DNA of 36,482 bases. Origin: a virus. The translations under genes were made by a program, and so were the position numbers. Under the pieces are notes generated by a model. The model saw nothing but the letters and a program-made list of their open reading frames with translations, searched no databases and had not been told where the DNA came from. The DNA lies in the IMG/VR virus record IMGVR_UViG_3300030101_003074, positions 1 through 36,482 of that record; one strand, written 5' to 3'. Numbering within the stretch: the stretch's first letter is position 1; every line of letters begins with the position of its first letter. Of the stretch, positions 21,733 to 36,477 are shown in pieces.

Positions 21733-22317
21733 TTATACGTCAAAAACTAGATTACCTGACACGGTAATTCTGTACTCATCAGACGTATAAAAAGGGTATA
21801 CACAGTGTGCTAATTTAGCAGGAAAAAAAGCTATTTTACCCTCAAAACTCTTATCAGCTCGTATGGCTTCTGTTTCAACCTTACCCAAAGGATCTGTGTA
21901 GATAAAATTAAAACAACCCGCCTGACATTCATCCTTTTTCATGTGAGGAAATCTCTTTGCTTCTTCTTCAAACGTATAAGGCATCTTATGCCAAATAACA
22001 AAACTAAATAAACCAGAATGTTTATGCACAGGATTGAACTCATGTTTTTGTTGAAAGTTAACCCATAGGCTTAGAAACTTTAATTCTTTTTGAGACGACA
22101 ATGTTTCAACTGCATTTTTAAAATAAGAGAATTGCTTACTGTGCTCTTGAACACAAGCATTCATAAAGGGCATCAATATTGGCTTAGCTTCAGGTATGCT
22201 ATACTCTTGTTTTAAATTACCCGCCAAATTATGATTAAATCTTTCAAGAGATTTTTTGTGTATTTCTTTGTCAAGTTGATCGAGAATATCTTTTGGAACG
22301 TTTGTTATTACATACAT
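21733..22317 (-). CDS. Putative Fe(II)/2OG-type oxygenase, HxH variant
   Basis: 194 aa from the ATG at 22317, chosen because AAAGGA lies 8 bases upstream. The candidate metal triad is H98-x-H100 (FNPVHKHSG), H171 (AKLAHCVYPF) and a 2OG-anchoring R183 (EYRITVSGN). The pattern W.NFQ.K.EFNP.H.HSG...FVIWHK.PY belongs to a cyanophage/marine phage family of putative 2OG-Fe(II) oxygenases. HxH in place of HxD is unusual, and activity is not proven. It is the last gene of the first enzyme block before the virion genes. Confidence 0.7.
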   Translation of the reverse strand: MYVITNVPKDILDQLDKEIHKKSLERFNHNLAGNLKQEYSIPEAKPILMPFMNACVQEHSKQFSYFKNAVETLSSQKELKFLSLWVNFQQKHEFNPVHKHSGLFSFVIWHKMPYTFEEEAKRFPHMKKDECQAGCFNFIYTDPLGKVETEAIRADKSFEGKIAFFPAKLAHCVYPFYTSDEYRITVSGNLVFDV

Positions 22318-22928
22318 AGCCAAGTCCTTTCTTGTAATGTTTCGTGGTTCGGGTTCATTGGAAAGCTAATTGATAGTCTGTTATCTAATGATACCGCTTT
22401 GTGCCATACACCAGCAGGAGCATAAACACAGTCTCCTGGTTCTAAGGTTATGTCAAATTTGTCTTCTACTGTAAACTGAGTTTTTCCCTCTATTTGTATT
22501 ATTAGATTATGGGACTGATCAAAGTGCATACCAAATCCATCTTTTGTTGTTTGCATATTTTTTACAGAAAAAAATATGTGAGCGTCACAAGATATTTTGT
22601 TAACGTTTTCTAAAAAATGACAAATGTCATTTATCTTTTTGTTAACTCTAGAACAGTCAGTTAGATAACAAACATAGTTATCTATGTATCTTTGGACTCT
22701 CTGTGGTCCTATGATTGATTTATCGGTTTGCCATTCTGCTACCAGCTCAGGTCTTATTGGGCTAAGATCGCCTCCTATTACGTTAAATCTTTCGTAGTTT
22801 ATAAAAGGAGTATTGTTCAATAAGTCATACAAATCTGACCAACAAAAAATATCTTGAAAGGCGCCCTTATGATAAAAAGGTTGTAGCTCTTTTGTAACAG
22901 AACAAATTTGTTGTTGTAAATTATTCAT
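22308..22928 (-). CDS. JmjC/cupin-type Fe(II)/2OG oxygenase
   Basis: 206 aa. The C-terminal cupin core shows H135-x-D137 (GFGMHFDQSHN), IIQIEGKTQF, LEPGDCVYAPAGVWH with H176, and R184. This arrangement is typical of cupin-4/JmjC hydroxylases, which hydroxylate protein side chains such as Arg, His or Asn. The N-terminal 110 residues are helical. It overlaps the previous gene by 8 bases and the next by 10. Within this array it is the member most likely to act on a protein. Confidence 0.75.
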   Translation of the reverse strand: MNNLQQQICSVTKELQPFYHKGAFQDIFCWSDLYDLLNNTPFINYERFNVIGGDLSPIRPELVAEWQTDKSIIGPQRVQRYIDNYVCYLTDCSRVNKKINDICHFLENVNKISCDAHIFFSVKNMQTTKDGFGMHFDQSHNLIIQIEGKTQFTVEDKFDITLEPGDCVYAPAGVWHKAVSLDNRLSISFPMNPNHETLQERTWLCM

Positions 22929-23400
22929 TTGTTTTCAAAGCAATGGTAATTCTAAAAGATCCTTGTTTAATATTAGGTAAAGCTCTGTGAGATATGTTCG
23001 CTCTGAACTTTACAACTCTGTTGAATATGGGATACACTACTATTGAAGTATCATCTCCAATCTTAAATTCTGTCCCACCACCGTCTTCCATAGTCCAATT
23101 AGGATCAGGGTATATTAGATATGTCCAATCTCCATCATCAGCATGAAACGAACCATACTGTGTAAGGGACTGACCGTTGGCATAGCACCTTACAATTTTT
23201 TCTTTTATCTTTGGTTGAAAGTAAGATTGATAGTGAGGAGTGCTTTGATACCAAAACCTGTTTGGGTCATTGTCATTACCTGATAAGTTCTTGTACTCCC
23301 AGTGACCTAAGTAAATGTCTTTCCAAAAACTTGTAAGGTCATCCTCGTTAAATACATTATCGGCATACCAAACGTTAGTCACTAAAGATTTAAAGTTCAT
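22921..23400 (-). CDS. Fe(II)/2OG-dependent oxygenase
   Basis: 159 aa. Triad H86-x-D88 (YGSFHADDGDWTYLIY), H138 (RANISHRALP) and R150 (SFRITIALK), with the GGTEF word (109-112) that usually follows the HxD in prolyl-hydroxylase-like enzymes. The N-terminus begins NFKSLVTNVWYADNVF, a typical lid region. Start ATG overlaps the upstream stop as ATGA. The substrate is unknown; small size fits single-domain phage 2OG enzymes. Confidence 0.8.
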   Translation of the reverse strand: MNFKSLVTNVWYADNVFNEDDLTSFWKDIYLGHWEYKNLSGNDNDPNRFWYQSTPHYQSYFQPKIKEKIVRCYANGQSLTQYGSFHADDGDWTYLIYPDPNWTMEDGGGTEFKIGDDTSIVVYPIFNRVVKFRANISHRALPNIKQGSFRITIALKTNE

Positions 23401-23930
23401 GCAAATGTAAACACAGCTACGATACGAGCGCCTTTTTTAGGAAATACCATATAGTGTGGAGAAGAACCAAAACAAACACCTTTATATTTTTCAGGATCAA
23501 TTGTATGTAAAACTCTACTGTTGTCGTCTGATAACACTACTGTCTTAGCCTCAGGATCACAATCATTCAGATATATCAGCAGCTGCTTGTGCGGGTAGGG
23601 GTGGTCCGTGTGCGTTGGACAATTCTCCGTTATGCCAGCAAACGTAATATTTACAGACACTCTGTAAACATCCTTAACTTCAATGTTATTTGCATCCGCA
23701 AACTCCTTTAATATTCTTAAAAACTGTTCTCCATACGTAGAGTTAAACATCTCACCTTTTGTTCTTTCCTCAGGTCTTCTTAAAACATCATGACTCATAT
23801 AAGCATTGTTATCTGGTGGATTATGAATTGTATTTGGACTGTAGTAATACGGAAAAGAATTACTTAACACTGTTTGTTCTATAAAATTCAAACTATCTTT
23901 TGATAAAAAATTATTACTAGTAATAAACAT
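23397..23930 (-). CDS. Fe(II)/2OG-dependent oxygenase next to halogenase
   Basis: 177 aa from the ATG at 23930; a longer in-frame form (23969) would overlap the halogenase more deeply. Triad H107-x-D109 (CPTHTDHPYPHK), H159 (SSPHYMVFP) and R169 (GARIVAVFTFA), with LLIYLND between, the usual strand after HxD. It starts 14 bases inside the halogenase gene, which suggests coupled expression and possibly successive action on one substrate. Substrate unknown. Confidence 0.78.
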   Translation of the reverse strand: MFITSNNFLSKDSLNFIEQTVLSNSFPYYYSPNTIHNPPDNNAYMSHDVLRRPEERTKGEMFNSTYGEQFLRILKEFADANNIEVKDVYRVSVNITFAGITENCPTHTDHPYPHKQLLIYLNDCDPEAKTVVLSDDNSRVLHTIDPEKYKGVCFGSSPHYMVFPKKGARIVAVFTFA

Positions 23931-25401
23931 TGTTCTCGTGAAACTCCATAAAAGAGAAACCCTCGTCAATAGCCAAGTCTCTCCATGTTTTTAGTCTTTT
24001 TGTCAAATCATCTAATCTCTTTTCGTTTTCTTCTTTGAATTCTGTCATGTCAACACCTCTCACTTTTAACATATTGATGTCTGTCGGGTGCCAGTGCATT
24101 CCTGTTGCAATAGCGTGATGCCCTCCAATGCAGTCAAAAGAGTGCACTTGCTCTCTCATCAAAGCGGTGTGTACAAACCCTGCCTCTATCGTAGGAGCTA
24201 GTTTGTAAAGTTTCTCGTCCCAGTTTTTATTAAAGTTAGCTTTCCAATACGCAGTATCTTTTCTGTGAGATAAAGCGTAGTGCAGAGCGACAAAGTCAGC
24301 AAAATTTTTAAATAAGTATTTACAAGCAAAGGTAAAGTTATCCTTATCCCATTGACTTATCTCACCCCTGGTCATGTTTCTAATTAACTTAATCAAAAAT
24401 TGATGCACAGTGTATAGTCCGTTGCTTTCAAGAGGTTCTATAAAACCAGCTGATAACCCTATTGCACAGACATTCTTAACAAACAATCTTTCATGTATAC
24501 CTACTCTCATTTTTATTTTTTTAAATTCTAGATCGTCTCTACCTAAATAAGTTTTGAAATCTGACAAAGCGTCTTTGTCATCAATAAATTTGTCAGAGTA
24601 CACATATCCTGTGCCTATTCTATTCCATAAAGGTATATTCCAAATCCAACCATCATTATAAGCAGTGCAGTTAGTGTAGGGGACTAATTCTTTTTCTTTA
24701 TCCTTGTAAGGTATTCTTGTTGCCCAAGCTGAATTATTAGGTAATAAATCCTCGTAAGATTCAAAAGGTTCTTTTAAAGTTTCTCCTAACAACATAGATT
24801 TAAAACCAGTGCAATCTATGTACAGGTCTGCCTTATGTTTACCGTTTAATGAAACAATACCCTCATCATTTTGTTCAATATCTTTGATATGTTCAGAAAA
24901 ATATTTTAAACCTTTTGGTATGCAAAACTTTTCTTTCAACCACTTAGCAAACAATGTTGCATCAAAGTGATAAGCTGTTTCTTTTTCAAAGTTCTCACTT
25001 CTGTACATGTGACCAGTATCTATCTGAGCCATGTGTTCATATAACATAGAAGCGTAACTTTCGTATGGAAGATCAGGATACTGTAATTTTAAATACCACC
25101 AGTCATTCATAGGGTATTTCAACTCACCAAAAGGATAATGAAAAGCCTCTCCTTTTTTATAAAAGTCAGTGAACTTTATACTGTACTTGTATATAGCATT
25201 ACATTCTCTCATGAAGTCATCATCTTTTATACCTAATAAATCTAACCAAGATCGAAAGCCGAGTATGGTGCTTTCTCCAACACCAACAGTGCTTTCATTT
25301 GGTGACTCTATAAGACTGATTTCATAATTAGGAAAAACTTTAAGCAAAGTAGCTGCAGTCATAAAACCAGCAGAACCCCCGCCAACTATACAAATTTTCA
25401 T
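23917..25401 (-). CDS. Flavin-dependent tryptophan-halogenase-like protein
   Basis: 494 aa from the ATG at 25401 (AGAGGGTTAAC upstream; ATGA overlap with the preceding oxygenase). FAD site GGGSAG at 7-12; GVGEST at 40-45; a lysine in the AIYKYSIKF word (K72), aligning with the catalytic lysine of PrnA; DCTGF at 196-200; the halogenase signature WIWNIP at 252-257; and PLES with E325/S326, matching the catalytic glutamate region. Such enzymes use FADH2, oxygen and halide to halogenate aromatic substrates. A viral relative (VirX1) is known from a cyanophage. No flavin reductase gene is visible. The substrate could be free tryptophan, an indole, or a peptide. Confidence 0.9.
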   Translation of the reverse strand: MKICIVGGGSAGFMTAATLLKVFPNYEISLIESPNESTVGVGESTILGFRSWLDLLGIKDDDFMRECNAIYKYSIKFTDFYKKGEAFHYPFGELKYPMNDWWYLKLQYPDLPYESYASMLYEHMAQIDTGHMYRSENFEKETAYHFDATLFAKWLKEKFCIPKGLKYFSEHIKDIEQNDEGIVSLNGKHKADLYIDCTGFKSMLLGETLKEPFESYEDLLPNNSAWATRIPYKDKEKELVPYTNCTAYNDGWIWNIPLWNRIGTGYVYSDKFIDDKDALSDFKTYLGRDDLEFKKIKMRVGIHERLFVKNVCAIGLSAGFIEPLESNGLYTVHQFLIKLIRNMTRGEISQWDKDNFTFACKYLFKNFADFVALHYALSHRKDTAYWKANFNKNWDEKLYKLAPTIEAGFVHTALMREQVHSFDCIGGHHAIATGMHWHPTDINMLKVRGVDMTEFKEENEKRLDDLTKRLKTWRDLAIDEGFSFMEFHENNVYY

Positions 25402-25925
25402 GTTAACCCTCTCCATTGTTGACACTTTTGATAATTAAAAGCCAGGCTTATTCTTTTGTTTTCGCTCTTGTTTGGTAAAACTCTGTGTAATACATCATCA
25501 TCAAATAACAAAACATCACCTGTGTTAGGTGATATTCTTATTCTTGGCTCATCAATATAAAACTCAATGTCGCTCATTGAACTTGTTAAATACACAACAC
25601 CACAGATAAACTTAACACAATCATCTTTATGGTTATGATATTCCTGGTAGAAATTTTCTTCATATATATTAACCCAAGATTTTTTTATATATCCGTCAAA
25701 ATATTTTTCTTTTGAAAACATATACTCATTAATGTGATTTAGTATAGACATCTTTAGAGGCCATAGTTCTTTGACATTCAAAATATTATCAGTCAAATTA
25801 TACGACGTCTTGATATCACAGTCCCAAGACTGATCTGTCATGTCTAAATGTTTTGAAGCGACTGCCTTAAAAGCGTCATCCATAACACGATCGTCAATTT
25901 TACCTCTATAAATTTCTCTGTTCAT
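25398..25925 (-). CDS. Putative Fe(II)/2OG oxygenase, HxH variant
   Basis: 175 aa from the ATG at 25925, which overlaps the preceding stop as ATGA; upstream in-frame starts are less likely. Features: H97-x-H99 (YQEYHNHKDD), a strand GVVYLTSS, DVLLFDDDVLH with H147, and R158 (NKRISLAFNYQ). This resembles the putative 2OG-Fe(II) oxygenase family that has an NxHxH-type motif. It directly precedes the halogenase in the transcript. Whether HxH supports metal catalysis here is uncertain. Confidence 0.72.
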   Translation of the reverse strand: MNREIYRGKIDDRVMDDAFKAVASKHLDMTDQSWDCDIKTSYNLTDNILNVKELWPLKMSILNHINEYMFSKEKYFDGYIKKSWVNIYEENFYQEYHNHKDDCVKFICGVVYLTSSMSDIEFYIDEPRIRISPNTGDVLLFDDDVLHRVLPNKSENKRISLAFNYQKCQQWRGLT

Positions 25926-26599
25926 AAATGATAGTACAAATAGTAAGTAGGATATTTTATACCAAAAATTTGTATTTTCGTACCTTTTTCTACCCACACA
26001 GCAGACTCAGGTTTTAGTGGGTTTATCTTGCCATTTAGACGAACTTTTAAGTATCCAAAACAATTTTTTATTACAATATGATGTCTAAACTTATGTTCAA
26101 TGGATTTAATCTCTTGATGTCCACTTCTAAAAAAACCATCAAAATAAACGTTCTTTCTATTTAAAAGTTTTGAAAAAAGATTTTTTGCATACAGAGTATT
26201 TTTAAACATAGTGTGTGCTCTTCTAACTATTAGTTCCTCCCCGCTCTCCCAAGCAACGATGTTATTGAAAGAGTTGATATAACCATCTTTCTCCATATGA
26301 GGCTTAACAATCTTTCCATTTGATTTGCGTATTTGTAAAGAAGGTGTGCCATCCAACAAAGTTTCTGGCCATCTCCATCTATCGACTAATCTATCAAATA
26401 GGTCTTCTTGTTTAATACGTAGTAATCTAAGCTTGGCAAGTCTTCTTATGTGAAACTTAACCTTGTCTTCGTTTTTTATAATATTTTTAAATAACCATCT
26501 TACTTCTTTTACAAAATTATCACTTAGTTCTCTTTTCTCTAAAAGATATTGTTTTGATTCTGTTGGTAAATTTAGTTTAGTTAATTCCGTAGAGCTCAT
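25922..26599 (-). CDS. Unrecognised protein inside the oxygenase-halogenase array, 225 aa
   Basis: I do not recognise this family. The ATG at 26599 is used; a TTG at 26626 is possible. The N-terminal 70 residues are highly basic and helical (KFHIRRLAKLRLLRIKQED). Then come RWRWPETLLDGTPSLQ, KPHMEKDGY, an FDGFFRSGHQE word, and HHIVIKNCFGYLKVRLNG, which looks like a beta-sandwich with histidines, ending YPTYYLYYHL. Several His/Asp pairs could bind metal, but no clear 2OG triad is seen. It overlaps its neighbours by 23 and 4 bases, so it is part of the same operon and perhaps the same pathway. Confidence 0.7.
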   Translation of the reverse strand: MSSTELTKLNLPTESKQYLLEKRELSDNFVKEVRWLFKNIIKNEDKVKFHIRRLAKLRLLRIKQEDLFDRLVDRWRWPETLLDGTPSLQIRKSNGKIVKPHMEKDGYINSFNNIVAWESGEELIVRRAHTMFKNTLYAKNLFSKLLNRKNVYFDGFFRSGHQEIKSIEHKFRHHIVIKNCFGYLKVRLNGKINPLKPESAVWVEKGTKIQIFGIKYPTYYLYYHL

Positions 26600-27074
26600 G
26601 CAAATTATCTGTGTACCAAGAAGCAATAACGAACCTATTACCCTTAGTTATTTCTTTTACTCCGTGAGGATACTTTATTCCGTCAAAAAAGATAGTCCTG
26701 CCTATTTTTGGTTTGACTATCATTCCGTCTTCAAAGAAAGTCTCACCACCCTCGTAGTCATCATTTAGATAAGTTATAGATGTCATAATTGTAGTATCTC
26801 TTGCTTCATCTACGTGCATATCGTGTTTTGTGCCAGTTGGTCTATGAACCACTTGAACTAACTCAGGATAAGAGATAACTCCTTTTGAGTTCAAATAATT
26901 ATTCAAAGCAAATACTATTTTCTTTGGTAATTGATCATCTAAGTCTTCTACCTTTGCTAAATTTAAAGTATTTGTATTAGCCCACAAAGCACACTTACTT
27001 GGATTGTTTTTATATATTTCTATTAGTTTGTTGCCGACATCTTTGTCAAGCATACCGTCTTGAATAAGGCGCAT
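26577..27074 (-). CDS. Prolyl-4-hydroxylase-like Fe(II)/2OG oxygenase
   Basis: 165 aa and the clearest prolyl-4-hydroxylase-like member. Triad H87-x-D89 (HDMHVDEARD), H137 (GIKYPHGVK) and R147 (GNRFVIASWY), with the hallmark ITYLNDDYEGGETFF at 100-114 and KPKIGRTIFFDG before the distal histidine. Such enzymes hydroxylate proline or related residues in proteins. It starts one base inside the 118-aa virion-associated gene, so it is transcribed with structural genes. Substrate unknown. Confidence 0.88.
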   Translation of the reverse strand: MRLIQDGMLDKDVGNKLIEIYKNNPSKCALWANTNTLNLAKVEDLDDQLPKKIVFALNNYLNSKGVISYPELVQVVHRPTGTKHDMHVDEARDTTIMTSITYLNDDYEGGETFFEDGMIVKPKIGRTIFFDGIKYPHGVKEITKGNRFVIASWYTDNLHELYGIN

Positions 27075-27430
27075 TATAATTGTTGTTTAATCTCCAATAC
27101 AGATACTTCTATCATTGCTCTACTAGCTGCGTTTGCTTGAACTTTCATACTATCTCCTTCTTGATAAACTATAGCAGAAGAGATTGTGTTTGTATCAGAT
27201 GCAGACACATCTACTTGATGCGTTTGAAAATCAGCAGTTCCGTTGTTGTGATCAATGTTAACAGTCACCGCACTTGATCCATCGTAATTATGTGTGTTGA
27301 TAGTCTTAACAATAAAAGTTGATACAGGCGTTGGTGGCGTAGCAGCTACGTTTGCCACTGGCACAGTGAATACTGTGGTTAAATCAGTTGTAGTTAGGTT
27401 TGCAATAAATCTTTTAAATACGTCAGCCAT
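27074..27430 (-). CDS. Small beta-rich virion-associated protein, 118 aa
   Basis: Begins MADVFKRFIANLTTTDLTTV and continues with alternating strands rich in V/T/S (TFIVKTINTHNYDGS, AVTVNIDHNNGTADF), ending IEVSVLEIKQQL. This resembles small beta-sandwich head-tail or decoration proteins of marine phages; the pattern FKR...TTDLTTVFTVP is familiar. It sits between the 608-aa structural protein and the oxygenase block. No strong upstream ribosome binding site; it follows the 55-aa gene immediately. Confidence 0.6.
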   Translation of the reverse strand: MADVFKRFIANLTTTDLTTVFTVPVANVAATPPTPVSTFIVKTINTHNYDGSSAVTVNIDHNNGTADFQTHQVDVSASDTNTISSAIVYQEGDSMKVQANAASRAMIEVSVLEIKQQL

Positions 27431-27598
27431 TTAGCTTAGAAACCACGATCTTCTTGTGGACTCCTCTTGTGTATCACTCGTATAAGAAGTGTTTAATTGT
27501 TGTATCATAAACTCCAACTGTCTGATCAGTATAGAAAACTGTTGTTGATCGTATTCTACATCAGGGTCAGGGAATCTTTGTATAATTAATTTAGCCAT
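27431..27598 (-). CDS. Small conserved protein, 55 aa
   Basis: The ATG at 27598 overlaps the 608-aa gene stop as TAATG. The product begins MAKLIIQRFPDPDVEYDQQQ, followed by a helix FSILIRQLEFMIQQL and a polar tail ending RRSWFLS. Similar small proteins occur in marine podovirus-like genomes next to the same structural gene. It is too short for a functional call; a minor neck or tail component, or a chaperone, would fit the position. Confidence 0.65.
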   Translation of the reverse strand: MAKLIIQRFPDPDVEYDQQQFSILIRQLEFMIQQLNTSYTSDTQEESTRRSWFLS

Positions 27599-29424
27599 TA
27601 TCTTCTCCCGTCTGGTTGTATGTCAAATCTTTGAGTTCCTGCTCTCCAAGCAGTGCCGGTGGTATTTGAAACCAAGTTCACAGTAAACTCTCTACCCCTA
27701 CCTCTTAAACTAACAAAATCTGTATTGTCATTAAAACTAACTGTTTTTATTACACTGGTACTGTTGTTAGGATAGTTTTTAAACTCAAGCTTTGCATTTA
27801 ACGTGCCTTCCTGATTTTGCACGTCAGGAATAAGTTTAGAAACAAAAGAAAATTCATTACCTTCACCTATTTCTACCGATCCTGATTTAACAAAAGCAGT
27901 GATTGCAGTGCCATCAGCATCATTACCAGTCTCATGTAAAAATGTTTGTGTAGCTCCCGCAGTTAATCCTAATATAGTTTCGTTATTAGCGGTGGTGCTT
28001 TCTAAAAACTCTGTCGCAATAGGAGCATCATATACTTCTCTAGACATCCATGTTGTTCTAGATAAAGTTCCTGTCCACCAAGTTTGTTCTAGATAATTGT
28101 AAGCGACTATAGCGTTTATTTGATCCGATCCCGTGCGTGGATAAAACCACATGATTTCATTAAACTCACCGTTGTGTCCTGCAAAAGCATTCTCCGCTCC
28201 AGTTTGATTTAGATTGTCAAATACAAACTGTTCTACAGTGCATGGTATTTTTTTCACAGCACCATCAAATAAGAAGAAGGAATCCTGAGACATCCAATAG
28301 CTAATACCATTTACGTCTACACCAGCATGACTACCTACCATTCCACAGTTTTGTCCTAACTGTCTTAAACCAAAAGTAAAAGGTGGTCCAATAAACTGCA
28401 TTGAGTGTAAAGAAGTGTCTGTCCATATAAGATTCTGACCTCTTGATCTTAAAGCAGCTACGATTCTTGAACCGTCTGCAATACGTAGCGAACCAGCAGT
28501 ATTCTCTGCTGTAGGTTGATATGTGGTAATATCTTCTTGATCAGAAAATCTAATTAATAAATCATCTTGTGAAGCAGTATCTCCAATAGTTGCTTCCGTT
28601 CCAAAGAAAATTAAATGTCTATCAGGAGTCGATAAAAGACTTAATCTTGATGCTGTGGGTGCACCTGATATTGCAGTACATCTTGTAGAAACACCTGCTG
28701 ATGTATCCCATCTAAACGCCCCGCCGTTTAGAACAGTAGCGATCAAGTCTTCTCCAAAGTTTTCTAAAGACCATTGTCTTGCTTCTAATGTTACGTTTGA
28801 TGTTGTAGAAGGCGTTCCCCATGTGCCTGAACTCCATCCATCTGTTCCCCAACCGAATGCTGGAGTAGAGAAAGAGGGTCCAATACTGATTTGATATTTT
28901 GCATTTCCTGAACCTCCACCACTTGCAGTTGAACCTGAAGCTGCCGAGGTATGTGTTACAACGTACGCTGAAGTGTTTGGCACACTGCTAATCTCAAACT
29001 CTTTGTTCATATCCAATCCATCAATAGTTGAAAAAGAATCAAAAGTTACAAAGTCACCTTCCTTAGCACCATGACCCACATCTGTAACAACCACAGATGT
29101 AGTAGCATTTGTTGTAAAAGGATTAGTTAAAGCTTGTGTTTCTCTAATAGGAGTTATGTCAAAAGCAGATCCCTCTTCTATTACATATAGTTTTCTATCA
29201 GTGCCTATTGCGTTGTATCTTGTGCCATCAAGAGCAACCCATGCGTGCATGTCCCTTGCAACACCGATCAAAGTTGTAGAAATAAACTTCTCCCAACCAT
29301 TGATTTTTTGAGGTAATCCTTGAAAAAACCTAACCATATCACCATCTGTCCACTTGCCTTCGCCTGTGTAGTCAGTGACTTCTTTATTGATACCTGGTGC
29401 TGGTCTAAAATTAACTAAGGGCAT
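27598..29424 (-). CDS. Structural protein, P22 gp10-like stabilisation/tail hub family
   Basis: 608 aa. The N-terminus PLVNFRPAPGINKEVTDYTG, then GKWTDGDMVRFFQGLPQKI and NGWEKF, with RYNAIGTDRKLYVI near 70-83, matches a marine phage virion family that I associate with packaged-DNA stabilisation or tail-hub proteins. The rest is beta-rich, with WSLENFGEDLIATVLNGG and repeated GT-rich turns, consistent with a propeller-like fold. It lies between the two oxygenase blocks. A perfect palindrome GTAATATATTAC (29429-29440) sits just before its start, and there is no clear ribosome binding site. Confidence 0.7.
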   Translation of the reverse strand: MPLVNFRPAPGINKEVTDYTGEGKWTDGDMVRFFQGLPQKINGWEKFISTTLIGVARDMHAWVALDGTRYNAIGTDRKLYVIEEGSAFDITPIRETQALTNPFTTNATTSVVVTDVGHGAKEGDFVTFDSFSTIDGLDMNKEFEISSVPNTSAYVVTHTSAASGSTASGGGSGNAKYQISIGPSFSTPAFGWGTDGWSSGTWGTPSTTSNVTLEARQWSLENFGEDLIATVLNGGAFRWDTSAGVSTRCTAISGAPTASRLSLLSTPDRHLIFFGTEATIGDTASQDDLLIRFSDQEDITTYQPTAENTAGSLRIADGSRIVAALRSRGQNLIWTDTSLHSMQFIGPPFTFGLRQLGQNCGMVGSHAGVDVNGISYWMSQDSFFLFDGAVKKIPCTVEQFVFDNLNQTGAENAFAGHNGEFNEIMWFYPRTGSDQINAIVAYNYLEQTWWTGTLSRTTWMSREVYDAPIATEFLESTTANNETILGLTAGATQTFLHETGNDADGTAITAFVKSGSVEIGEGNEFSFVSKLIPDVQNQEGTLNAKLEFKNYPNNSTSVIKTVSFNDNTDFVSLRGRGREFTVNLVSNTTGTAWRAGTQRFDIQPDGRR

Positions 29425-29444
29425 TTTAGTAATATATTACATTT

Positions 29445-29996
29445 TCAACGTTTTTCTACATCAATGTTAAAAGCTAGAGATAGCCTAGCTTCCTCCGAGA
29501 GATGTGGAGATACGCTATGTTTTACCATACCAGGAAACAAAACCAACATATTTGATTCTAAAGGCACAGACCTTGAAAACTCTAAAAAGTCTATTCTTTC
29601 CGCTGGTTGAGGAACGTCAATATAAAAGGCTCCTGACCAGTCTGTAGGATAGTGCATGTGTGTTTGAGTATAGTCTCTGTTTAAGTGCTTCATAGCCCAA
29701 GCGTCTTTAAGTTTGTAATCAAATATCTCTTCGGTGTGACAACTCCTAAGTTGATAAATACCGTCTATGGTTAACATGGCTTCTGTAAAAAGCTTTTTTG
29801 TTTGATTGTCCTCCAACAGAGATGTGTAGTTTGACATGGTGGCTTTAACGTTTGTTTTTCTATCCATAACATCTTTTTCTGTAAGTCTTAAAACAGTATT
29901 CTTAACAACAGATAGATAATCCTCATGTAAAAAATCTCTAAAAATATAGACAGCATATAAGCTGCTATGACCGTTTTGTACTACTTGTAAGTTCAT
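29445..29996 (-). CDS. Putative Fe(II)/2OG oxygenase, HxH variant
   Basis: 183 aa. H113-x-H115 (TQTHMHYPTDWSGAFYIDVP), then LVLFPGMVKHSVSP with H160, and R171 (ARLSLAFNID). The THxH...WSGxFYxxxP arrangement matches the putative 2OG-Fe(II) oxygenase family in which HxH takes the place of HxD. The start overlaps the upstream gene as ATGA. It is the last gene of the second enzyme block before the 608-aa structural gene. Confidence 0.75.
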   Translation of the reverse strand: MNLQVVQNGHSSLYAVYIFRDFLHEDYLSVVKNTVLRLTEKDVMDRKTNVKATMSNYTSLLEDNQTKKLFTEAMLTIDGIYQLRSCHTEEIFDYKLKDAWAMKHLNRDYTQTHMHYPTDWSGAFYIDVPQPAERIDFLEFSRSVPLESNMLVLFPGMVKHSVSPHLSEEARLSLAFNIDVEKR

Positions 29997-30529
29997 AGTG
30001 TTATAAAAAATGCCAATATCTTTCTTTCATCAAACGTAAAGTCTTGACAAGGAGCGTGAGGTCTTTTGGCATTATACATCAGTAACCTATTTGGATAAGC
30101 TCCAACAACAATATCAGGTTCTTTGTCCCATTCGTGTTCAAAGAAAGCAGTCCCGCCACTTACCGATTGATCAAAATATAGTATGCCAGCTATATCTGCG
30201 TTAGAATCAGAATGAACTAATCCGTACTTTGTATTTACTTTTGACTTCATTAACTCTTTACTTAAAACTTTTCTAGCAATAACTCGTAAATCAAAATCTC
30301 TGTCTATAATTCTTTGTAGTTCTTTTTTGTATACTTTTGTTTCATCCTCCCCAACTATTGTTTGATAACAAGGATATGCTTGAAATCTATTACCGTAGTA
30401 AACCTCAGAAGGTTGATAGGTTGCGTCATACTCTAAGTTATCTAAAAGATTTTTAGATCCTTTAAATAAAACATCACCTAGAAAATTAGGTTTTAGATAA
30501 ATAGATCCTTCGATAATTGATTCAATCAT
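29993..30529 (-). CDS. Fe(II)/2OG-type oxygenase (DUF6445-like)
   Basis: 178 aa. H106-x-D108 (YGLVHSDSNADIAGILYFD), GGTAFF (125-130), YPNRLLMYNAKRPHAPC with H158, and a basic residue at 169-170 (DERKILAFF). The NRxxxYxxxxxH arrangement before the distal histidine resembles the DUF6445 group of putative 2OG oxygenases; its neighbour at 30526-31032 shares the same layout, suggesting an old duplication. Both ends overlap neighbours as ATGA. Confidence 0.72.
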   Translation of the reverse strand: MIESIIEGSIYLKPNFLGDVLFKGSKNLLDNLEYDATYQPSEVYYGNRFQAYPCYQTIVGEDETKVYKKELQRIIDRDFDLRVIARKVLSKELMKSKVNTKYGLVHSDSNADIAGILYFDQSVSGGTAFFEHEWDKEPDIVVGAYPNRLLMYNAKRPHAPCQDFTFDERKILAFFITL

Positions 30530-31032
30530 TTGTCAAAAAAAGTATTTATTGTTAACCTTGCATTGTCAATTGAGTCTCCATAATTCTTTAAAGACATATG
30601 TCTATATTTTTGTCCGTCAAACAAAAGAGCTCTGTTATGAACAAAACCAATGCGATCCACCATGTTATCTTTATCATCAAAAAAAGCAGTCCCTGATTCT
30701 AAGTTAGTATCAGATAAGAATATCAATACGCTGTAGCCTGGATCAGTATGTATCCAATCAGGTTTGTCATTTTCATATCTTGCATGACAATACATTCCAT
30801 GACCTTTTTTAGTAAGATCCATATTTAGTTTTCTTTTAATCAACTCAACAACGTTTAGAAACAAAAAAGGAGCCACCTTCTCTATGGGCTCGGTTCTAGT
30901 TCCTGGCCAATTTTGATTTGTTATATTTGTGCGCTCTCGAAATTCGTCTATGTTGTAAAAAGGTAATTGCTTAACACAGTCGTAATAATCATGACTGTAG
31001 TAATCAAAAAAATTATCTACTATTTTTATCAT
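30526..31032 (-). CDS. Fe(II)/2OG-type oxygenase (DUF6445-like)
   Basis: 168 aa. H95-x-D97 (PDWIHTDPGYSVLIFLSD), SGTAFFDD (113-120), VHNRALLFDGQKYRH with H145, and R159 (NARLTINTFF). Compared with the next gene it has the same HxD, GTAFF, NRxLL and distal-histidine order at similar spacing, so the two look paralogous. It starts 20 bases inside the glycosyltransferase gene, indicating coupled translation. Confidence 0.78.
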   Translation of the reverse strand: MIKIVDNFFDYYSHDYYDCVKQLPFYNIDEFRERTNITNQNWPGTRTEPIEKVAPFLFLNVVELIKRKLNMDLTKKGHGMYCHARYENDKPDWIHTDPGYSVLIFLSDTNLESGTAFFDDKDNMVDRIGFVHNRALLFDGQKYRHMSLKNYGDSIDNARLTINTFFDK

Positions 31033-31843
31033 CTTTGTTAGCGACCATTGTCCCTACATGACCTTTAAAAGCTCTGTTACCAAAGTGTGTTAAAGGCATG
31101 GCCAGGTCAGCCCAAATTTGACCACCACACTCTTGCCACAATCTAGAGAAATAATAATCTTCAGAAAGGTATCTTATTGTTGGTTTGCCCTCTTTAGTTT
31201 TAGTCTCATAAGGACCCACGGCAAATAGATCATAACAATTATCTGATCTAAAATATTCACCGTTAACTATTTGATCAGACTCATATTTTCTTTCAGGAAA
31301 CTTTTTCATCATTGTACGAAACACTTCACGTTTGACTAACATCATACCTGTAGCTGCTTCATTGACTGGAAAGAAACCGTTCTCACCCTTAAGGTTTAAT
31401 GGATCATCAAAATTAACATTGTATCCCAAAGCCTTTGCTTCTATCTCGTCAGGTTGTGCATTAGGGTTTTCTTGTAAAATACCTTTGACTTTCTCAAGAT
31501 AGATATGCTTTCTTGGATAGATCCCACAAGCAACATCTTTGTCTGCGCACACAAGTCTTTCAATATTCTGCCAATTAAACCCTATGTCAGCATCTATAAA
31601 CAAAAGGTGCGTAGCTACAAAATCTTTATCATCCATCATCATTGACACTATTGTATTTCTTGCACGAGTTATCAAACTTTCATTACCCATAGATTGAAAT
31701 CTTAATCCAACATTCTTTGCCATACTCCATTGTTGAACCTCTAATAATCCATGAACAGTTGCTTCTGCTAGCATCCCGCCATACATTGGCATACCTAAGT
31801 ATATTCTTACATTCTTATCTTTTAGTTCTTCAGGCTTAATCAT
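31013..31843 (-). CDS. GT-A-type glycosyltransferase
   Basis: 276 aa. NESLITRARNTIVSMMM (54-70), LLFIDADIGFNW with DxD at 84-86, VACGIYPRK (104-112), and later a YLSEDYYFSRLW word followed by LTHFG. This set marks the small GT-A-type glycosyltransferases seen in cyanophages and marine phages. The DxD would bind a metal and sugar nucleotide. It overlaps an oxygenase on one side and the DUF6065-like gene on the other (8 bases), which suggests that glycosylation and hydroxylation occur in one pathway, for example on virion proteins or host surface glycans. Donor and acceptor are unknown. Confidence 0.82.
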   Translation of the reverse strand: MIKPEELKDKNVRIYLGMPMYGGMLAEATVHGLLEVQQWSMAKNVGLRFQSMGNESLITRARNTIVSMMMDDKDFVATHLLFIDADIGFNWQNIERLVCADKDVACGIYPRKHIYLEKVKGILQENPNAQPDEIEAKALGYNVNFDDPLNLKGENGFFPVNEAATGMMLVKREVFRTMMKKFPERKYESDQIVNGEYFRSDNCYDLFAVGPYETKTKEGKPTIRYLSEDYYFSRLWQECGGQIWADLAMPLTHFGNRAFKGHVGTMVANKDDKNSR

Positions 31844-32540
31844 ATCTTTTCCTTTTCCATAATAAGTTTTTATAGTTGTCTAAATAATATCTAAACATAC
31901 TAACGTGTTCTTCATTCGTGTGTTGATTGTAGTCATAAACTTCCATTTTCCAATCTTCTCTTTTAAAAGGGATTACCCAAACCAAAGGTTGCCCAGCTTC
32001 AACGATAAAATCTTTATCAAACTTTTTTACAATAAAAGGGAAATTGACAGGAAACTTGTATACATCTGTATCAACAATTCCTTCTGCTATTCGTATTTTG
32101 GAAGGAGAGTTAGGAGGGTTAAGAAACATACAACTATAACCTTTAGGTGTTTGAATAGACCAAGGATTGTTAATTTTAAGTAGTATCTTTATTTCTTCCT
32201 CATTAAAAAACTCTTCGTTTATCTGCCAATATCCATGATCACTAATACCAGAATCAACTAAGATAGCTTGGTTTTCTTTTAGGTTTTGATTATATTCTAT
32301 AGCAATTGTGTCGTCTGATTTTTTGTAACATAAAAATGCAAAATTATTTACAAGATAATAACCTGACGTTAAGACATCAAGAAAAGGAATACATCTTTTT
32401 ACAGAACCTCCTTTTTCCTTACCCCCTGGAAAGTTTTGCATAGACTTATACCAATTTGGCACTCTCTTCTTTGAAGGTATTGGCTTTTCTATTAAAGAAA
32501 AATGTTCGCTATAAAATTTTATTTTCTTACTAAATAACAA
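31836..32540 (-). CDS. DUF6065-like hypothetical protein, 234 aa
   Basis: The frame starts at a TTG (32540) just inside the preceding gene; the next ATG is 33 codons later and would remove the PIPSKKRVPNWYKSM segment, typical of the family start. Other words are VKRCIPFLDVLTSGYYL, NNPWSIQTPKGYSCMFLNPP, and IEAGQPLVWVIPF-like VEAGQPLVWVIPF near the end. I match this to DUF6065-type proteins that accompany 2OG oxygenases in marine phages; their role is unknown. The NPP and IPF words suggest a beta-barrel. No metal triad is evident. Confidence 0.7.
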   Translation of the reverse strand: MLFSKKIKFYSEHFSLIEKPIPSKKRVPNWYKSMQNFPGGKEKGGSVKRCIPFLDVLTSGYYLVNNFAFLCYKKSDDTIAIEYNQNLKENQAILVDSGISDHGYWQINEEFFNEEEIKILLKINNPWSIQTPKGYSCMFLNPPNSPSKIRIAEGIVDTDVYKFPVNFPFIVKKFDKDFIVEAGQPLVWVIPFKREDWKMEVYDYNQHTNEEHVSMFRYYLDNYKNLLWKRKRYD

Positions 32541-33139
32541 CTAGGTAATCCAATGAAAGGTCTTCCGTCATTAAGTTTAGCATCTTTTGTTTCTACATTG
32601 TTGTAATGAAGAAAAACTTGAGTGCATCTCTCTCCTTCAAAAGGTTCTCTCCAATGCTCCAAAATATTACCTTTGTAAACCAGCATGTCTCCAGGTGATA
32701 GGTTAACGGCAATTCCTTCTTTACCTGATTCACCACTGGGCTCTAAATAAATAGGCCACATATCGCCACCCAAGTTTAAGGTTGTAGATATCTCACAAGA
32801 AAATCTATCTATGTGTCTAGTTAGTTCATGACCTTTTCTATAAACCCTAGCATATGAATAGTTTGGATTAAGCTTTAAGCCTGTTGTGTATTCCATTCTA
32901 GGATGAAGCGCTTGAAGTAAAACTTCCATGGCTACATCTGCATAGTGAGAGTATGCCCCTGGAACTTGTTCATCTCTAAAAGTTCCGAACACCTCATCAT
33001 ACGGAGAAATAATTTTATCTTCAAAAAGTCTTTTAGCTACTTTTTCTTTCAAAGTAAAATACTCCTCTATGAAAGCAGCTACCTCTTCACTAATCGCATT
33101 TTTTATTACTGTGTAATTATTAGTTTGAAATTCATTCAT
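32519..33139 (-). CDS. Fe(II)/2OG-dependent oxygenase
   Basis: 206 aa. Triad H109-x-D111 (ELTRHIDRFSCEISTTLNL), LSPGDMLVYKGNILEHW with H162, and R171 (GERCTQVFLHYN). The N-terminus begins FQTNNYTVIKNAISEEVAAF, a common lead-in of these enzymes. A YAxxYxxGHELxxHxD layout is usual in phage and bacterial 2OG oxygenases of this group. Start overlaps the preceding stop as TAATG. Substrate unknown. Confidence 0.83.
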   Translation of the reverse strand: MNEFQTNNYTVIKNAISEEVAAFIEEYFTLKEKVAKRLFEDKIISPYDEVFGTFRDEQVPGAYSHYADVAMEVLLQALHPRMEYTTGLKLNPNYSYARVYRKGHELTRHIDRFSCEISTTLNLGGDMWPIYLEPSGESGKEGIAVNLSPGDMLVYKGNILEHWREPFEGERCTQVFLHYNNVETKDAKLNDGRPFIGLPSCYLVRK

Positions 33140-33762
33140 TATTTAAAATCCTTTCCTCTGAACCATGTTACTAATGAATATCTAGTTCCTTTAGTTACTT
33201 TTTTTACCTGATGCCAGTTATCACTAGGAAATAAAATTACGGTTCCTTGATTTAACCACTCAGGCTCTGAAAAAGTTTTTTTCTCTAGTTTCATAATTGG
33301 AGATAAATTAGGACTAACTATTTCTAGATTACCTCCCTCGTACTCACTAGGGTCTGTCAAACATGCAACTAAAGAAAGCTTTCTACTAAGACCGTCATGC
33401 CATCCGTCTCCCCCGTGAGGTGCTACGTCTTGATGCCAACCATAAAACTGACCTTCTGTATATTTAGTAAATTGATAAGGCTCTCCATCATCTATATCAA
33501 AGTTCCATCCAGCGTCTTTGTTAGCTTGCTCCATAAGTTCATGAAACCAAACATTCATCCATCTCATGGGCTCTATCCAAGCAACTCTTGAGTTTCTTAT
33601 TTTAGACAATTCTTTTTCTTCTTCTTCTGTAAGTTCGTCCGACTTTTTACCTGTTGTAACAGCTCTCTGCTCCTTAATCATCTTACCAAATTTTATGATG
33701 TCATTACAAAATGAAGGAGGCAATGCCTTGTCGTAGAACCAATAAATATTTTCTAAATACAC
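33139..33762 (-). CDS. PKHD-type Fe(II)/2OG-dependent oxygenase
   Basis: 207 aa from a GTG at 33762 that shares a base with the preceding stop (TAGTG); a TTG at 33783 is the alternative. Triad H110-x-D112 (FYGWHQDVAPHGG), LVACLTDPSEYEGGNLEIVSPN, GTVILFPSDNWHQV with H184, and R194 (GTRYSLVTWFRG). This is the classical PKHD/prolyl-4-hydroxylase layout. It is the first enzyme gene after the tail-fibre and chaperone genes, so it would be made with tail proteins. Confidence 0.87.
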   Translation of the reverse strand: MYLENIYWFYDKALPPSFCNDIIKFGKMIKEQRAVTTGKKSDELTEEEEKELSKIRNSRVAWIEPMRWMNVWFHELMEQANKDAGWNFDIDDGEPYQFTKYTEGQFYGWHQDVAPHGGDGWHDGLSRKLSLVACLTDPSEYEGGNLEIVSPNLSPIMKLEKKTFSEPEWLNQGTVILFPSDNWHQVKKVTKGTRYSLVTWFRGKDFK

Positions 33763-34121
33763 TACGCTGGTTGAGCTGGCCAAGCGGTTCCGCTGTCATC
33801 TAAAGCTACAATTACTGTAGCATTGTTGGCGGGATAGTCTCTAAGTGCTTGCCTATATGTAGCCCATTCTGCTTTCTTTGAATCTGTTAAAGGGGAGTCA
33901 GAGAGTTGTGTCCAGTCACTATTTACTAGTAACTTGTTTCTTTCTTCTCTCACTTCGTCTGCTGTTAACGTCTTTGTATCTGCAACATCACTTCCAGTGT
34001 AAAACCAACCAGGTAATACATTATCATTTGATGTTTCTAAAAAACCTTCTCTATTAGTTGGTTGAGAGTCAAGAACTTCAACCACTCTGTTCTGTGTGTT
34101 TATGTTATACCATTTAGCCAT
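33762..34121 (-). CDS. Phage tail assembly chaperone-like protein, 119 aa
   Basis: The C-terminal half has the well-known pattern EVREERNKLLVNSDWTQLSD, then PLTDSKKAEWATYRQALRDYP, found in tail-assembly-chaperone and tail-fibre-assembly proteins of many phages. The N-terminus WYNINTQNRVVEVLDSQP is a small beta domain. It directly follows the tail-fibre gene (TAATG overlap), the usual place for a fibre-folding helper. Role inferred from domain and position. Confidence 0.8.
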   Translation of the reverse strand: MAKWYNINTQNRVVEVLDSQPTNREGFLETSNDNVLPGWFYTGSDVADTKTLTADEVREERNKLLVNSDWTQLSDSPLTDSKKAEWATYRQALRDYPANNATVIVALDDSGTAWPAQPA

Positions 34122-35443
34122 TATGGGAAATACTCCGTGAATTGCGCTTTACCAGCGTTACCTGCTTGACCAGTTCCTCTGTTTCCTGGTCTACCTGTTC
34201 CACCCGTACCAACTGTTACGGAAACTGGAGAACCTTTGGTGTAGTTACCTACGATATCTCTGTAGACACCACCTGCTCCTCCGCCTGAACCTTCTTCACC
34301 ACCTGCTGGTCCTGCCCCTTTACCACCGTTACCAAGTGGAGAGAAAGGAGATACTGCACCGTTACCACCACTACTTGTAGCGTTACCGGCTTGACTTGCG
34401 GTTCCTGCTTCACCAAAAGCACCTGAAGCGGCACCACCAGGAGTTGAGTTTGCACCTCCAGAAGGGAAACCCGCTGCTCCTTGAGGACCACCATTAGCTG
34501 CTCCAAAAGGGAAAGTTGTGTTACCACCAGGCTGACCTTGTCCCTGACCGAAACCGTGACCACCACAACCGCCTGAGCCACCTCCACCTAAACCAAAAGC
34601 AACACCAAACATTGCATCTGATCTAGAAGTGAAAGAACCTGTACTTGTTAACTGTTGTGTGGTTGTTACGTTTCCAACAACACCACCTGCTGCATCAGCA
34701 AAAGCTAGAGCGCCAGGAGCTGTTACACTTAAAACTTGTCCTTCAGTTCCTACTGAAGTTAAACCCGTACCACCTTTACTTGTAGGGACAGTTGGTAATC
34801 TATCTGATCCTAAAGTACCTGAACCAATATTACTTGCGTTTAAGGCTGTTAAAGCAGATCCATCTGCTGCTGGTAAGGTTGCAGGGAATCTTGCATCAGG
34901 AACTGTGCCTGAGGCTAAATCTGCTGCGTCTAAATTTGTTAAGTTTGCGCCACTAACTGCTGGCAAAGTAGCAGGGAATCTTGCATCTGGTAAAGTGCCT
35001 TTGTTTAAAGCAGCTGCGTCTGTTGAACTTGAAATTTCTACATTAAAGTCTGATGCACCATCACAATATACTGTTGTGTGTGCACCTTGTGTAATTAAAG
35101 TACCGTTGGCTTGGTGACCTGTGGCTGCGATTGTTAGTGTTTGTGAACCTGTTGTATTATTAAAAAATGTGTATTTACTTTCAGTGGCAGGGATAAATAC
35201 TACGATATCACCCGTTAGAGCTCCTGTTAGTTCAATTGTTCTATTTGATGACTCTGCTGTATCAGAGGCATTTGCTGTTGAAAGTGTAATATTTGCGGAT
35301 CCAGCTACAGATTTTGAAATGTAACCAGACATAAAAGCATCAATGACGTCTAAGTTATTGTTGGTATTGGTACCCCATGTGTTGGCATTTGCGCCAGTTG
35401 CCATAAGTTCTAGTTTAAGTCTATCTGAAAAGTTACTACTCAT
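34121..35443 (-). CDS. Tail fibre protein with glycine-rich adhesin-like tip
   Basis: 440 aa. The N-terminus SSNFSDRLKLELMATGANAN, then TWGTNTNNNLDVIDAF, matches the attachment domain of many marine phage tail fibres. Two copies of a DARFPATLPA unit lie 30 residues apart (about 153-162 and 183-192); a 17-base word is exactly repeated in the DNA at 34881-34897 and 34971-34987. Residues about 284-440 are dominated by glycine (GLGGGGSGGCGG, GGKGAGPAGG), like polyglycine-sandwich tip adhesins such as S16 gp38. It would recognise the host surface. AGAGAGGTAAAAAC precedes the start. Confidence 0.82.
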   Translation of the reverse strand: MSSNFSDRLKLELMATGANANTWGTNTNNNLDVIDAFMSGYISKSVAGSANITLSTANASDTAESSNRTIELTGALTGDIVVFIPATESKYTFFNNTTGSQTLTIAATGHQANGTLITQGAHTTVYCDGASDFNVEISSSTDAAALNKGTLPDARFPATLPAVSGANLTNLDAADLASGTVPDARFPATLPAADGSALTALNASNIGSGTLGSDRLPTVPTSKGGTGLTSVGTEGQVLSVTAPGALAFADAAGGVVGNVTTTQQLTSTGSFTSRSDAMFGVAFGLGGGGSGGCGGHGFGQGQGQPGGNTTFPFGAANGGPQGAAGFPSGGANSTPGGAASGAFGEAGTASQAGNATSSGGNGAVSPFSPLGNGGKGAGPAGGEEGSGGGAGGVYRDIVGNYTKGSPVSVTVGTGGTGRPGNRGTGQAGNAGKAQFTEYFP

Positions 35444-35493: not shown

Positions 35494-36477
35494 TTATGCT
35501 GCGTCAACCTCTGTCCAAGTATTACTTGCACCTGTTACAACGTTTGCCCAAGGTGTAGCAAAAGGATTACCTGCTACCACAGTCAGATCTAGCCCCGTAA
35601 CATCAACGGTTGCTGAGGCGTTTACCGTGGCTGTTCCTGTAGCGAAGCTAATAGCGACAGTCGAAACACTAACAATGACACCCGTACCACCTGTGGCTGA
35701 AGCTGTTCCAGCGGAGAAGCTGGACGACAATCCAGTAACATTTACCACTGCGTCCGCTTCCACAACAGCAGTCCCTAGAGCAGAAGCCATAGTAACTGGC
35801 ACAGGATCTACTTGAGTAAAGATATCAATAAATGGAGTCCCGATAGCAAAGTCTAATTGATCAGAAGGTGCAACAACTGCTACACTTCCTTCACCAGAAA
35901 CAGTCGCTCCTGATAAAGCAGCACTGACTAATTGACTATCTAAAGTAACAAGAGATGTTCCTGTTTCAGTCGTATCGCCTAGAGCACTTGTCATCTCTAG
36001 TCCTGTTACAGAAACTATGACACCCGATCCTACTTCTACTGTAGGTGTGCCTAACGCAGTAGACATCGTAACGCTACTAACGTTAGTAATAAATTCTATG
36101 TTCTCATTCCAGGCAAATGAACCCCAAGTATTTCTACCCCAACCTGCATCAACAGTTCCCGATGCAGTTTCCGTTCCTGTTGTAAATGCCATAGAAAGAC
36201 TTGGCATAACAACGCCTGTGCCTTCTCCTACAGTTACTCCAGATAATTGTGTTTCGAAAGAAACACCTGTTGGAAAAATTACGTGTTCAGGTTCACCTAT
36301 TGCGGTGCCTAAAACAGAAGATACTTGAAGTGAATCAAGTGTAACTACAACATCAGTAAAGGCAGTTTCAGTGCCTAATGCTGTTGTAGTCGATAACCCA
36401 GTAACAGATACTGTGATCGAGCTTTGTTGGCCCCATGCGCCTTCGCCCCAATTATTTTCACCCCAAGCATCTGCCAT
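35494..36477 (-). CDS. Repetitive beta-rich virion protein with W/G motifs, 327 aa
   Basis: Built from about twelve degenerate units of roughly 20-26 residues with the pattern V-x-V-T-G-L followed by ALGT-x-T (examples VSVTGLSTTTALGTET and VSVTGLEMTSALGDTT). Two tryptophan/glycine segments interrupt it: WGENNWGEGAWG at the N-terminus and GWGRNTWGSFAWNE in the middle. Similar W/G-plus-repeat proteins occur in marine phages next to tail genes. It is probably an elongated virion surface or tail protein. The ATG lies 3 bases from the window edge, so upstream signals cannot be seen; no enzyme motif. Confidence 0.7.
   Translation of the reverse strand: MADAWGENNWGEGAWGQQSSITVSVTGLSTTTALGTETAFTDVVVTLDSLQVSSVLGTAIGEPEHVIFPTGVSFETQLSGVTVGEGTGVVMPSLSMAFTTGTETASGTVDAGWGRNTWGSFAWNENIEFITNVSSVTMSTALGTPTVEVGSGVIVSVTGLEMTSALGDTTETGTSLVTLDSQLVSAALSGATVSGEGSVAVVAPSDQLDFAIGTPFIDIFTQVDPVPVTMASALGTAVVEADAVVNVTGLSSSFSAGTASATGGTGVIVSVSTVAISFATGTATVNASATVDVTGLDLTVVAGNPFATPWANVVTGASNTWTEVDAA

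Follow-up and report, generated by a model that had tools for sequence, protein, structure and literature searches.

Layout and gene content of the cassette

The window analysed here, i.e., the whole stretch of IMG/VR record IMGVR_UViG_3300030101_003074 (36,482 bases, linear), comes from a marine phage and carries on its minus strand, between 21,733 and 33,783 and directly behind a tail fibre gene and its chaperone, a cassette rich in small Fe(II)/2-oxoglutarate (2OG)-type oxygenase genes (Table 1). A reading made earlier from the letters of this DNA alone (the sequence-only reading) had placed eleven such genes in about 12 kb, together with a halogenase, a glycosyltransferase and a DUF6065-like protein. 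All of these were recovered, but g09 and g10 had been overlooked. These two genes split the enzymes into runs of eight and seven genes. With the open reading frames as listed, the span has 16 junctions, 14 of which overlap by 1–53 bases; the only two gaps (20 and 167 bases) flank the structural gene g10.

All eleven genes are confirmed, by fold or motif, as predicted double-stranded beta-helix oxygenases: six score above the Pfam cut-off (g01, g06 and g11 with PF13759, g02 with JmjC_2, g08 and g17 with PF13640), four (g03, g04, g12 and g13) were assigned by PHROG profiles or cross-homology together with the motif, and one (g16) by an AlphaFold model and fold search. The four were linked in through PHROG cross-matches, as phrog_274 also matches the Pfam-confirmed g08 (3e-15), and phrog_274 and phrog_1644 match the same genes. 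The beta-helix, for which structure prediction had been proposed as a check, was thus modelled for g16 and is expected from homology in the other ten. The metal triad that the sequence-only reading assigned to all eleven has the form HxD...H in eight, but in g01, g06 and g11 it is HxH...H, a feature of the PF13759 family that is also present in its solved member 3bvc. Alignments show H109, D111 and H162 to be invariant in the g16 family (41 sequences) and H120, D122 and H172 in that of g04 (31 sequences, with a near-invariant R182); the families of g04, g12 and g13 share an invariant or near-invariant HxD...H...R, and g03 has HxD...H in its own sequence. A tblastn search of named phages with g12 gave no match. 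The oxygenases are at most 31% identical to one another, which rules out recent tandem duplication as their origin. Judging from the closest solved relatives, i.e., NO66, MINA, YcfD and JMJD5 for g02 and the prolyl 3- and 4-hydroxylases P3H1, P4H and PHD2 for g08, the products of g02, g08 and g16 appear to resemble protein hydroxylases most closely.

Among the partners, g05 is confirmed as a predicted flavin-dependent halogenase of the PF04820/VirX1 type. Its best PDB match is VirX1, although that is a cyanophage enzyme from another phage lineage, and its motifs GGGSAG (the GxGxxG that binds flavin adenine dinucleotide), GWIWNIP (WxWxIP), K80 and EPLE are intact, being present or conserved when 13 sequences are aligned. 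Used alone as query against viral contigs, g05 gave no match, and an alignment query was required. The DUF6065-like protein g15 recurs in these cassettes and is also found as Syn9 gp43, its family alignment being too diverse for a contig scan. A fold search of its AlphaFold2 (AF2) model (predicted local distance difference test (pLDDT) 81.7) retrieved dUTPases at Z of about 10, a likeness that supports a shared arrangement rather than an activity. The one gene that had gone unrecognised, g07, now has a JmjC-like profile; its ligand positions are lost relative to L259 and L260, whose relatives keep the histidines, and the absence of ligands rules it out as a metal-binding twelfth oxygenase. It is likely a pseudo-oxygenase and possibly a pseudoenzyme partner of the others.

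Table 1 Features of the tail fibre-cassette region of the window and of related contigs (prefix L)
Feature	Coordinates	Strand	Basis
Tail fibre, Gly-rich C-terminal tip (proposed substrate)	34121..35443	-	PHROG tail-fibre matches
Tail fibre assembly chaperone, PF16778 Phage_tail_APC	33762..34121	-	Pfam E 8e-19
g17, 2OG oxygenase, PiuC/PKHD-like, HxD..H	33139..33783	-	PF13640 62.5 bits; PiuC in PDB search
g16, 2OG oxygenase, PHROGs 'ferrochelatase' (phrog_2954)	32519..33139	-	Invariant motif; AF2 model; P4H/PHD2 fold matches
g15, DUF6065-like (phrog_7084), predicted dUTPase-like fold	31836..32540	-	PHROG; AF2 pLDDT 81.7
g14, glycosyltransferase	31013..31843	-	phrog_1574 homology, DAD motif
g13, 2OG oxygenase (phrog_1644)	30526..31032	-	Invariant H95, D97, H145, R159; phrog_274 cross-match
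g12, 2OG oxygenase (phrog_1644/DUF6445-like)	29993..30529	-	HxD..H..R in alignment
g11, 2OG oxygenase (PF13759), HxH..H	29445..29996	-	Pfam 4.5e-13
g10, virion structural protein (phrog_3287)	27598..29424	-	PHROG 4e-84; homologs in HTVC023P-type phages
g09, small conserved gene	27074..27430	-	No confident family; kept beside g10 in kin
g08, 2OG oxygenase, prolyl-hydroxylase-like, HxD..H	26577..27074	-	PF13640 44.5 bits; P3H1/P4H/PHD2 in PDB search
g07, JmjC-like domain without metal ligands	25922..26599	-	hhalign 94% to JmjC alignment
g06, 2OG oxygenase (PF13759), HxH..H	25398..25925	-	Pfam 4.7e-12
g05, predicted flavin-dependent halogenase, VirX1-like	23917..25401	-	PF04820 E 1e-98; 6qgm VirX1 E 2e-102
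g04, 2OG oxygenase (phrog_274)	23397..23930	-	Invariant H120, D122, H172
g03, 2OG oxygenase, HxD..H	22921..23400	-	PF13640 25 bits, just under cut-off; phrog_274 5e-15
g02, JmjC protein-hydroxylase-like, HxD..H..R	22308..22928	-	PF08007 (JmjC_2) 4e-12
g01, 2OG oxygenase (PF13759), HxH..H	21733..22317	-	Pfam 1.3e-7, above cut-off; phrog_81 2e-27
Non-oxygenase enzymes in oxygenase slots of kin	L036:7884-8690, L019:7257-7862, L023:832-4000		
Carbamoyltransferase C-terminus	L099:5214-5777		Contig with related cluster

Family labels of the oxygenases

Three PHROG labels are wrong for oxygenases in this region, a finding that is new here. The family of g16 is named 'ferrochelatase' both in PHROGs and in published pelagiphage annotations, yet g16 matches no ferrochelatase domain in Pfam and its confident model (pLDDT 94.5) is a prolyl-hydroxylase-type beta-helix, so that the name was rejected. 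In the fold search the model matches Pseudomonas putida P4H and PHD2 at Z 15–17, with P. putida P4H, whose structure was determined bound to EF-Tu, as the top Foldseek match; by predicted fold and motif g16 is an oxygenase of the prolyl-hydroxylase type. The labels 'DNA endonuclease V' (phrog_274) and 'minor coat protein' (phrog_1644) are likewise misnomers, as the motif HxD..H..R identifies both sets of predicted proteins as 2OG-type. The relabelling undercuts the heme and iron readings of recent pelagiphage papers, in which iron or heme biology, or seasonality, is linked to 'ferrochelatase' and 2OG genes (PMC9599517, PMC11561400); both kinds of gene should be taken as coding for oxygenases, if not throughout then in the g16 family that was modelled.

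Relatives, recurrence and selection

PHROGs profiles assign positions 298–21,693 of the window mostly to replication, lysis and virion genes, with several unknowns. Neither head nor terminase genes were recognised, and we therefore regard the window as a partial genome. Its DNA polymerase is 51–58% identical to those of three HTVC023P-type members and g10 is ca. 40–42% identical to homologs in this group, which together place the phage, by protein similarity, beside the HTVC023P-type pelagiphages and DSL-LC04. Of the annotated kin that we found, the HTVC023P-type phages (HTVC023P, HTVC027P and 023Pt_psg01) are nearest in DNA polymerase and rank among the nearest in g10. They carry three to five oxygenases at the same site by the tail genes, with a 'ferrochelatase' in two of the three (PMC9599517), but these are far fewer than in the window and no halogenase was found in those regions. 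For the group as a whole, eight distinct 2OG genes were reported, and any 'ferrochelatase' is always adjoined by one of them (PMC9599517). Elsewhere in the window, a PAPS (3'-phosphoadenosine 5'-phosphosulfate)-reductase-like gene (phrog_424; 11145–11990) has a possible tie to sulfur chemistry or DNA modification, and a 327-residue repeat-rich protein (VTGLSxxTALGT-like; 35497–36477), for which no family was found, is conserved upstream of the fibre in kin.

A search for the same gene set in other phages, as the sequence-only reading had proposed, was successful. The whole set recurs, its gene order almost unchanged, in contigs L252–L258 (L256–L258, which are near-duplicates of one another, have one extra oxygenase), and in part in L096, L176 and L251; the HTVC023P-type phages carry smaller sets. 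Moreover, the set is under purifying selection, both findings being new: in the close pair L254/L256, unsaturated at synonymous sites, the enzyme genes compared give an omega of 0.05–0.21, and ratios against the window itself are rough owing to high or saturated synonymous divergence. Gene overlaps, the order conserved elsewhere, purifying selection and the intact halogenase motifs provide good support for the earlier proposal of a co-expressed tailoring set.

The claim that such a density is remarkable is weakened. With the same profiles, 10 oxygenases within 12 kb, along with two halogenases, were counted in Syn9 and 11 oxygenases in each of contigs L216 and L140; cyanophage S-SCSM1 encodes 24 2OG-Fe(II) oxygenase genes (PMC9602691), although its ORF (open reading frame) numbers suggest that these are dispersed over a large T4-like genome and do not form one cassette. 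The gp40–gp54 block of Syn9 (DQ149023) follows tail-fibre and Gly-rich genes, as the cassette of the window does, and contains two VirX1-type halogenases, a DUF6065-like gene and 9–10 oxygenases, one of them JmjC-like, from the same PHROG families. Syn9, however, belongs to the T4-like Kyanoviridae, most of the genes are annotated only as gpNN, and neither a glycosyltransferase within the block nor a virion gene inside the run was seen. The S-SSM6a/S-SSM7 cluster (Iyer et al. 2021) also combines a phage halogenase with 2OG and cupin-like oxygenases, but there sugar and carbamoyl chemistry dominates (PMC7824862). In the window as in the cyanophage clusters, a halogenase and several 2OG genes lie side by side close to genes for tail fibres; the kind is already known, and the window is a large, conserved member of it in an HTVC023P-related lineage. 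Such 2OG oxygenase/halogenase clusters are common in ocean phages and the roles proposed for them differ, i.e., nitrogen metabolism, iron or heme, and antibiotics.

Fibre-tip co-variation and candidate targets

Enzyme content follows the sequence of the fibre tip, not the backbone, an exploratory and new finding. Across 12 non-duplicate genomes from the group of the window, it correlates with similarity in the last 170 residues of the fibre once divergence of g10 is controlled for (partial Mantel r 0.68, p 0.0002). Enzymes of the proximal half correlate at 0.62 with the tip vs. 0.28 with the fibre N-terminus, and on the far side of the conserved g10 the enzymes of the distal half follow the tip as well (0.51, p 0.004). 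These tests were picked after the gene order had been seen and several variants were run, which makes the p-values exploratory. Two contigs illustrate the pattern: L267, with g10 83% identical to that of the window, shares both tip and cassette with it; L036, with g10 86% identical, shares neither. A Gly-rich protein lies within three genes upstream in 85 of 110 runs (three or more such enzymes each, in fetched loci mostly found through the enzymes themselves), vs. 53.6 ± 4.1 expected when the non-enzyme genes are shuffled. Ahead of the Syn9 and S-WAM1 clusters, too, there are Gly-rich proteins (PF21722). A Gly-rich tip as an obligatory feature was dropped, because six loci with other tips (L016, L020, L022, L028, L036 and L076) have oxygenases too. 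A small 'MAHFA...' family matching no Pfam family occurs within three genes upstream of 57 of the 110 runs (e.g., L104:3671-4135 and L191:2199-2609) and is chaperone-like by position only.

We postulate, at a probability of roughly 45%, that the cassette serves the post-translational tailoring of the receptor-binding tip of the fibre encoded just upstream. The cassette would be expressed as part of the late tail module; the oxygenases would hydroxylate side chains of the tip, and the halogenase and glycosyltransferase (in kin, sulfo- or methyltransferases) would elaborate these side chains. By exchanging enzymes, the phages would vary the chemistry of the surface that contacts the host in step with changes in the tip sequence, and the benefit may lie in host range or in evading receptor change. 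In kin, the corresponding slots hold genes for a sulfotransferase, an O-methyltransferase, a radical SAM (S-adenosylmethionine) protein, a glycosyltransferase and epimerases. Combined with the likenesses of the oxygenases, this suggests that side chains of a macromolecule are tailored. The sequence-only reading had named a virion protein, a host surface molecule or a metabolite as the substrate; co-segregation of the enzyme set with the tip favours the first over the other two, and the tip, tentatively, is the best-supported candidate. A full-text search of the open literature found no direct report of hydroxylated phage fibres.

Several observations weigh against tailoring of the tip. The last 170 residues of the window fibre contain 56 Gly, 3 Tyr, 11 Phe and no Trp, so that a tryptophan halogenase would need another aromatic target there. 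The substrates of VirX1 in the work of Gkotsi and colleagues (2019) were reportedly small aromatic molecules. The title of that study, as cited in PMC10452541, speaks of iodination of diverse substrates, and the related cyanophage cluster was published as metabolite or capsule tailoring (PMC7824862). The distal-half signal rests on three window-like genomes and falls to a non-significant r of 0.09 when they are removed. Among loci found through g10 alone, Gly-rich tips occur in 5 of 11 with a cluster vs. 6 of 16 without (not significant), and a Gly-rich protein lies directly upstream of only four of 13 runs. Finally, tip and cassette are physically linked and block transfer could give the correlation; a shared host range is another alternative cause.

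This last cause leads to an explanation that we consider unlikely, namely that the cassette decorates the host surface (lipopolysaccharide, capsule or a surface protein), e.g., to exclude other phages, and co-varies with the tip via fit to the same host. Host-specific adaptation would yield the same correlation, glycosyltransferase, epimerases and sulfotransferase suit glycans as well, and Iyer et al. suggested capsule decoration for the S-SSM6a cluster (PMC7824862). However, the window has a single glycosyltransferase and no sugar-nucleotide pathway was recognised in its profile scans, the oxygenases with close solved relatives look like protein hydroxylases, and the cassette genes overlap one another inside the virion tail module.

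The likeness to protein hydroxylases (NO66, MINA and YcfD nearest to g02, and the EF-Tu-bound P. putida P4H heading the Foldseek list for g16) would also suit a cassette that retunes translation by hydroxylating proteins inside the host cell, e.g., EF-Tu or those of the ribosome. We find this improbable, as it leaves the tail-fibre linkage, the co-variation with the tip, the halogenase and the presence of eleven unlike enzymes unexplained. Similarly poor odds attach to the making or tailoring of a small halogenated metabolite, be it an antibiotic, a toxin or a signal, as Iyer et al. proposed for the S-SSM6a cluster (PMC7824862). The activity on diverse substrates reported for VirX1, the closest solved halogenase (in the title cited in PMC10452541), fits such a role, but no scaffold-building enzyme (synthetase, ligase or polyketide synthase) was recognised in the window profile scans and co-variation with the fibre tip is not predicted. 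That the oxygenases mainly consume 2-oxoglutarate and so shift the balance of nitrogen and energy in the host, a role put forward for cyanophages (PMC3037559), is very improbable, since such a sink needs neither eleven dissimilar motif-conserving enzymes nor a halogenase nor a rapid turnover of gene content.

Returning to tailoring of the fibre tip, it is possible, though we hold this broader claim with less confidence than the local one, that marine phages diversify their receptor-binding tips by an exchangeable multi-enzyme toolkit (hydroxylation, halogenation, glycosylation and sulfation), with a set of enzymes that fits the sequence of the tip. With the co-variation of tip and cassette, the question of roles becomes a single testable idea, for which isolated phages (Syn9 and HTVC027P) are in hand. 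Were the tip modified, a layer would escape predictions of host range made from sequence only, and the broader reading, if true, would mean that phages from unrelated families diversify their adhesins by enzymes after translation.

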